DNA of 64,000 nt from Brevundimonas sp. EYE_349 (lineage in GTDB: Bacteria > Pseudomonadota > Alphaproteobacteria > Caulobacterales > Caulobacteraceae), in the NCBI RefSeq assembly GCF_023147505.1, contig NZ_JAHXPB010000001.1, positions 434,001-498,000 of the forward strand, in the 5' to 3' direction. The notes under the pieces were generated by a model. That model did not search any database and had not been told where the DNA came from. It saw only the letters and a list, made by a program, of their open reading frames with translations. The position numbers and the translations under genes were made by a program. Positions within the stretch are counted from its first letter, which is position 1. Every line of letters begins with the position of its first letter. Positions 56,672 through 58,066 of the stretch are shown piece by piece.

Positions 56672-58066
56672 TCATTGACCGCCGCCAACGAACTGAAGAC
56701 CGCCCATATAGGGCTGCAGCACCGCCGGCACCGCGATCCGCCCGTCGTCCTGCTGATAGTTCTCCATGATCGCCACCAGCGTCCGGCCGACCGCCAGGCC
56801 CGAGCCGTTCAACGTATGGACGAACTCGGTCTTCTTCTCGCCGGCCCGCTTGAACCGCGCGTCCATGCGTCGCGCCTGGAAGTCGCCGCAGTTCGAGCAG
56901 CTGCTGATCTCGCGATAGGTCCCCTGGCTGGGCAGCCAGACCTCCAGATCGAAGGTCTTCTGCGCCGAAAAGCCCATGTCGCCCTTGCACAGCAGCATCC
57001 GCCGGAACGGCAGCTCCAGCGCCTTCAGCACGGCTTCCGCGCACTGCGTCATCCGCTCATGCTCGGCGTTGGAGTCCTCCGGCCGCGTGATCGACACCAT
57101 CTCGACCTTCGAGAACTGGTGCTGACGGATCAGCCCGCGCGTATCGCGCCCCGCCGACCCCGCCTCGGCCCGGAAGCACGGCGTCAGCGCCGTCATCCGC
57201 ATCGGCGTCGCCAACTCGTCCTCGGACAGGATGGTCTCGCGCACCAGATTGGTCAGGGAGACTTCGGCGGTGGGGATGAGCCAATGGTGCGTGCGATTTG
57301 CCAATTGCTCAATCATCGCCGCACTGAATTCGGCGTCGGTCTTACCTTCGGCAGATAACCCTTTTTGCCAAATTGCCGGATCAATCACAGTGGATGCGTT
57401 GAAAAGGTCTTCGGCAAACTTCGGCAGTTGCCCAGTCCCAAACATCGCATCGTCACGCACCAGCAGCGGCGGGTTCACTTCCAGATAGCCGTGCTGATCC
57501 GTCTGCAGGTCCAGCATGAACTGGCCCACGGCCCGTTCCAGCCGCGCCAGCTGCCCCTTCAGCACCGCGAACCGCGCGCCCGACATCTTGGCCGCCGCCT
57601 CGAAGTCCAGCATCCCCAGGGCCTCGCCCAAGTCGGCGTGATCCTTGGCCGGACCGGTGCGACGCGGTTCGCCCCAGGTCGAGACCTCAACATTGCCCGC
57701 CTCGTCCTCACCGTCCGGCACATCCTCGGCCGCCAGGTTCTTCTGCGCCGCCAGCAGGTCGCGCAGTTCCTTGCCGACGCGCGCCTCGACCTCGGCCGCC
57801 GCCGCGATATCGCCCTTCAGCGCCTCGACCTCGGCCTTCAGCCGATCCGCCTCGGCCATGTCCTTGCGCCCCATGGCGGCGCCGATCAGCTTGGAGGCAG
57901 CGTTGCGCTTAGCCAGGGCGTCCTGCCCCGTCGTCTGGGCGTTACGCAGTTCGCCGTCCAGCCGCAGGATGTCGGCCGTCAGCCCGTCGGCCTCGTCCAC
58001 CCCGCGCGACGACCAGCCCGCCACGTAAACCTGGGGGTTCTCGCGAATGGCTTTGATGTCGTGCAT
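56672..58066 (-). CDS. serS: Seryl-tRNA synthetase, with an internal insertion
   Basis: SerS charges tRNA-Ser (and tRNA-Sec) with serine. The 464-residue protein has the N-terminal long coiled coil (about 30-110) that grips the tRNA long arm, and the class II core with motif 2 [21 protein letters not shown] at 298-318 and motif 3 [16 protein letters not shown] at 421-436. Between LPKFAEDLF and [14 protein letters not shown] is a 39-residue segment (223-261) that is about 15 residues in E. coli SerS and shorter in many relatives. The DNA for it (57287-57400) is clearly lower in GC than the rest of the gene. The reading frame stays open and all catalytic motifs are kept. Confidence 0.96.

Follow-up and report, generated by a model that had tools for sequence, protein, structure and literature searches.

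A multi-allelic, horizontally exchanged insert in the single-copy seryl-tRNA synthetase of Brevundimonas and some other alphaproteobacteria

Seryl-tRNA synthetase (SerRS) is an essential enzyme encoded by a single-copy translation gene, a place where hypervariable modules are not expected; these belong rather to surface, weapon and defence genes. Why, then, does the SerRS of a Brevundimonas strain carry, inside its catalytic domain, a segment that differs from one close relative to the next? The gene in question, serS (positions 56672–58066, minus strand, 464 aa), lies in a stretch of 64,000 nucleotides of Brevundimonas sp. EYE_349 (NZ_JAHXPB010000001.1), hereafter the window, and a search of the strain's own genome returned this one match, the sole copy found. 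The identity of the open reading frame was established with Pfam (Seryl_tRNA_N and tRNA-synt_2b, both above cut-off) and with its AlphaFold model, which matched Escherichia coli SerRS (6r1m_B) with a TM score of 0.87 (query length); the protein has the tRNA-binding coiled-coil N-terminal domain and the class II catalytic core of the bacterial-type enzyme. Residues T266, E268, R299, E301 and R428, to which we ascribe catalytic and class II motif roles, occupy invariant columns in an alignment of 35 SerS sequences. The T266-A-E268 motif (57263–57271, minus strand), presumably the serine-binding TxE motif of the active site, is intact.

Five residues ahead of this motif ends a hypervariable insert of 39 residues (223–261; 57284–57400, minus strand), recognised by comparison with relatives and by codon composition, which begins after LPKFAEDLF and occupies a loop inside conserved coding sequence. 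The first-pass annotation had singled out this segment as longer than its E. coli counterpart, poorer in GC and different in codon usage, and these observations held. Alignment to 6r1m gave a loop of about 14 residues in E. coli, and the common alphaproteobacterial state at this site is a loop of six (e.g. RTTDGR). The GC content at 57300–57449 is 0.513, as against 0.63–0.76 in the dip-free windows on both sides, and GC3 is 0.51 in the insert (20 of 39 codons) versus 0.89 in the rest of serS (377 of 425; Fisher p = 7e-8). About 1% of 39-codon windows are equally low in GC3, and they occur in 12 of 180 other genes of the same genome with an ortholog, so that such a dip, taken by itself, is uncommon without being unique; the unusual feature of the insert is how it compares with relatives rather than its GC3. 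The atypical, lower-GC3 codons extend about 10–15 codons into the conserved N-terminal flank (residues 208–222; 57401–57445, minus strand), ending at WLIPT, and a lowered GC3 over about 10 codons on the same side was also seen in the average of insert-bearing relatives; these flank residues probably came in along with the insert.

The relatives were sampled at one genome per species and comprised the strain itself with 60 further genomes (a match in 58 of the 61, 30 loci kept), together with the best 80 of 514 contig matches. After merging of identical sequences and removal of one locus (L019) for its flank length, 71 candidates gave 55 distinct SerS of Brevundimonas and its closest kin, among which 44 carried an insert of 18–91 residues and 11 a loop of 5–6 residues. 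Mean GC3 was 0.60 in the inserts versus 0.88 in their flanks, the insert being lower in 43 of the 44. On a flank tree of 57 rows, the presence or absence of the insert needed five changes, at least four of which were forced by well-supported branches. Among 30 loci read from a sample of 80 genomes of the phylum, inserts of at least 30 residues were found in four, all alphaproteobacterial (the window's own, G004, G199 and G575), and the next longest measured 21 residues. A contig titled Bordetella sp. MAG (L057) encodes a SerS placed by the tree among those of Brevundimonas, and this record is therefore probably mis-binned or mislabelled.

For comparison of the inserts with one another, 54 distinct Brevundimonas-type SerS were used (72 candidates minus 15 duplicates and minus L019, L047 and L070, excluded for flank length), 40 of which had an insert of at least 30 residues. 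Grouping with phmmer (E < 0.01, Z = 1000, filters off) recovered no one homologous insert shared by the lineage: the 40 fell into 29 groups without detectable mutual similarity, and five shuffled control sets yielded no links at all. Other runs gave 43 groups from 54 inserts with the HMMER filters on and 27 groups from 40 inserts unfiltered, and in a set drawn from all taxa 73 inserts formed 58 groups, with one false link in one of five shuffled sets. Among 75 close pairs with flanks at least 93% identical (averaged over 150–450 nt away on either side), the inserts were related in four and unrelated in 71; in the pairs L035/L015 and L040/L039, unrelated inserts are set between flanks that are 95–96% identical, and L069, whose row adjoins that of the window in the serS tree, carries an insert of 91 residues unrelated to that of the window.

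The same alleles turn up in separate places. The family to which the window's insert belongs was detected in five of 390 Caulobacteraceae genomes, its own included, and is thus no segment of ordinary GC shared by most Caulobacterales. Its members come from two genera, namely the strain itself, three further Brevundimonas (L141, L142 and L143) and L140 of another genus, which in the insert region is identical to Phenylobacterium sp. MS003 (L068); they occupy separate branches of the flank tree, some of the separating branches being weakly supported. In L142 and L143 the insert of 129 nt is identical, and the identity continues for 12 nt on its upstream and 29 nt on its downstream side, whereas 13–18% of the synonymous sites differ in their flanks. 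A second allele, common to L086 (Methyloligella) and L289 of genus g14, crosses between families. Among 78 close pairs, the 30 nt just upstream of the insert have an identity of 0.80, which climbs back to about 0.94 within 150 nt, and downstream there is a slight dip (about 0.92); the upstream drop was absent from the insert-less close pairs, although with three of them this carries little weight. Homologous recombination across the insert would give such a pattern, and different histories for the window's insert and for its flanks are supported. The first-pass reading of an acquired insertion or recombined patch thus stands as regards acquisition, given that the allele has relatives elsewhere in the tree and outside the genus and that the insert of L069 is unrelated, but a single event does not fit dozens of alleles. 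Unrelated alleles on near-identical flanks, and alleles common to separate branches, were both found, as in a hypervariable exchanged locus; the site in serS is a multi-allelic, horizontally exchanged and compositionally atypical insert in a single-copy enzyme. One practical consequence is that phylogenies of these bacteria should not rely on serS as a clean marker.

How exceptional this is within the genome was assessed with 338 open reading frames called in 400 kb of the strain's own sequence and compared with about 400 kb each of two relatives, G028 and G009. Orthologs in at least one relative were found for 181 (122 and 172, respectively) and in both for 113, a low coverage because the two genomes were covered in part. 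Among the 113, a stretch of about 50 unrelated residues against both relatives, set between flanks 93–100% identical, was seen in serS and in no other frame. Six other frames were flagged, all against G028 alone; five had stretches of 21–33 residues that were still 35–45% identical, two of which look to us like cold-shock-type and lipoyl-enzyme linkers, and the sixth, with a gap of 122 versus 9 residues, was taken as a wrong-frame call.

Aminoacyl-tRNA synthetases were checked in six genomes, with the enzymes assigned from their Pfam family and from known motifs. In these genomes the putative ThrRS, ProRS and AspRS and a class I enzyme of 585 aa had no variable block. The putative ValRS of G019 has a loop of 67 residues where the others have 32, and this loop, which precedes DVLDTWFSS, is replaced by longer variants of lower GC3 in eight of 90 Brevundimonas genomes with a match (0.57–0.66 in the six that were read, L386–L391, with L389 being G019). 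It resembles the serS insert as a localised replacement in a synthetase with lowered GC3, but is far less diverse, as the other 82 of the 90 match the window strain's own loop in one piece. By eye, the ValRS loops of L386–L388 are clearly homologous to one another; flags at residues 25–30 of the putative ValRS were discarded, since these positions precede the start codon. For the putative LeuRS, two diverged, homologous forms of the editing region were seen, of 208 or 218 residues and both with nearly identical flanks and normal GC3, one in L333, L336 and L338 and the other in L334, L335 and L337. Since ValRS and LeuRS also carry variable patches, any pressure acting here may not be confined to SerRS. 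The putative IleRS of G019 (L329 versus L326) was noted to drop to 25–60% identity over about 100 residues near its C-terminus, the rest being mostly 80–100% identical.

Beyond Brevundimonas, genus g14 (family f8, from another order of the same class) had a match in 38 of 41 genomes, and 21 of the 30 loci read contained an insert of at least 15 residues. These 21 inserts formed 17 groups in a filtered run without shuffles, with a GC3 of 0.29–0.64 in 18 of them, and this genus repeats the Brevundimonas pattern independently. The genus of Phenylobacterium (a match in 68 of 70 genomes, 30 loci read) had the six-residue loop in 16 of the 30, and gaps of similar size are listed for other rows. Twelve of its loci (L236–L247) share an insert of 22–31 residues at the same site of the same enzyme in the same bacterial family, but, unlike that of the window, it is one sequence recognisable by eye as homologous throughout, an ordinary lineage-specific insert. 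Its GC3 is at least 0.79 in ten of the 12 (exceptions, L236 with 0.61 and L247 with 0.50), so low GC3 marks mostly the exchanged inserts and not the loop itself.

Whether the inserts are maintained as proteins was approached through 14 within-family pairs, of which one was identical, one unsaturated, one near saturation and 11 saturated or nearly so. The ratio dN/dS was 0.09 for L024/L051, clear of saturation, and 0.07 for L141/L142, near saturation; these two judgeable pairs speak against the inserts being junk and, few as they are, indicate that the protein sequence is constrained within allele families. The 11 other pairs had a pS of 0.67–0.93 and a pN of 0.15–0.45, the latter above that of the flanks in every pair, and the inserts therefore change faster than the flanks. 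Cysteine is almost absent from 54 inserts (0.1% vs 1.2%). AlphaFold modelled the window's insert as two helices (pLDDT about 59–67) and that of L069 likewise as helices (pLDDT about 38–57), and with such low values the folds of both are uncertain; outside the insert, the model of the window's SerS matches solved SerRS.

Among known systems, one likeness is to restriction-specificity subunits and to the toxin and immunity ends of contact-inhibition systems, which are multi-allelic exchanged modules of conflict loci. The serS insert shares with them conserved flanks, interchangeable unrelated modules, atypical composition and spread by recombination; they are accessory defence or weapon genes, whereas the insert sits inside a single-copy translation enzyme. 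A fast-differing insert in a near-constant enzyme resembles the molecules of an arms race, which is surprising for a housekeeping function. A second comparison is offered by human SerRS, in which, according to PMC10817482, insertion II belongs to the catalytic domain, lies near the active site and plays a negligible role in aminoacylation, and the region therefore tolerates additions. Judged by its residue numbering (G254–N261), insertion II appears to be located in the same loop as the window's insert. Insertions I and II are presented there as features of the cytosolic enzymes of higher eukaryotes, insertion II being short; inserts of the type described here, unlike those, differ in nearly every species, are low in GC and cross genera.

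We consider it about as likely to be right as wrong that the insert is an exchanged allele kept diverse by hypothetical antagonists that bind SerRS. The alleles would spread via homologous recombination between the conserved flanks, by transformation, transduction or gene transfer agents, and the enzyme would tolerate each new insert since the loop is exposed at the surface and, on this model, dispensable for aminoacylation. Cytosolic antagonists, such as phage proteins or injected or imported protein toxins, might bind SerRS near the active site and either recognise the insert or be blocked by it, so that a new allele escapes and negative frequency-dependent selection would maintain the diversity. 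Since many unrelated sequences at a single surface position alter an epitope and not a drug pocket, the antagonist is better pictured as a protein than as a small molecule. Counting against such antagonists are the 11 of 55 SerS that lack an insert, the two pairs on which the argument for constraint rests, and the weak support of some branches that separate the relatives of the window's allele. More tentatively, the SerRS of Brevundimonas and of several other alphaproteobacteria may be an allotyped essential enzyme, the insert serving as an identity tag in a conflict with phage proteins or toxins over synthetases that includes ValRS and perhaps LeuRS. Diversity kept by selection would point to a class of undiscovered agents that attack cytosolic aminoacyl-tRNA synthetases, and the insert alleles offer a direct handle for finding them.

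The main rival, possible but on balance doubtful, is that a tolerant loop turns over neutrally, through routine recombination drawing on a large pool of genes, and that its diversity brings no benefit. In its favour, the site is a loop, insert-less forms persist (11 of 55), both modelled inserts are of low confidence and amino acids change faster in inserts than in flanks; however, dN/dS is low (0.09 and 0.07) in the two judgeable pairs, the other stretches flagged in the gene control are mostly short and still recognisably similar, and the persistence of so many alleles of atypical composition is not readily explained.

Lineage-specific functions conferred by the inserts, such as partner docking, tRNA affinity or regulation, as in eukaryotic SerRS, seem to us improbable. 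Human insertions I and II are described as contributing to DNA binding (PMC10817482), and some constraint exists within allele families, but species whose flanks are 93–96% identical carry unrelated inserts, and for that reason no lineage-wide function can be attached to the insert sequence. Still less probable is an escape at the level of DNA, in which the insert disrupts, within the conserved core of serS, the target sequence that a homing endonuclease or another mobile element recognises. Any DNA would suffice for this purpose, as unrelated inserts within conserved coding sequence might suggest; against it, the two judgeable pairs show constraint at the protein level, tens of codons were added, always in frame, where few changes would do, and PHROGs gave no match, nor did viral contigs scanned by pattern yield a relative.

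Resistance to a seryl-adenylate analogue antibiotic through a single acquired patch, which the first-pass annotation had proposed, found no support and is very improbable, even though the insert ends five residues before the TxE motif of the active site. Antibiotic-resistant SerRS of the albomycin type is marked by a second, drug-insensitive copy of serS or by a change in the active site, and the window's genome had neither, with its one serS and conserved catalytic positions; moreover, there are dozens of unrelated alleles, and because one small molecule would seldom yield so many unrelated surface sequences, such resistance is an unlikely basis. Misassembly, contamination or frameshifted sequence can be practically dismissed: although some of the relatives are fragmented MAGs, the inserts were found in frame and in single copy in complete single-contig genomes (G028 and G009) and in culture-collection strains.

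Relatives of the inserts were sought in several collections. For 45 of the 54 collected inserts, searches of Pfam, PHROGs and PADLOC gave chance-level matches only (best E 0.015), and the scan of viral contigs mentioned above, performed with the whole SerS, confirmed no relative. Twenty concatenated inserts searched in 37 genomes produced 12 matches, all of them serS, and no silent archive of alleles was therefore seen in the strain's own genome. A plasmid search with the 301-bp insert region returned three weak partial matches, two annotated as serS and one unannotated. Within the open-access literature, we found no report of a hypervariable insert in SerRS.

Two other low-GC3 open reading frames of the window (45965–46930 and 32685–33671, both plus strand) had no Pfam match and were taken as wrong-strand calls; the former is overlapped by frames on the opposite strand. 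In the intergenic region between serS and surE, a palindrome-like sequence, TCCCCGCGAAGGCGGGGA, is present at 56549–56566; a second copy was absent from the window at up to two mismatches, and we take the element to resemble dispersed extragenic palindromes.
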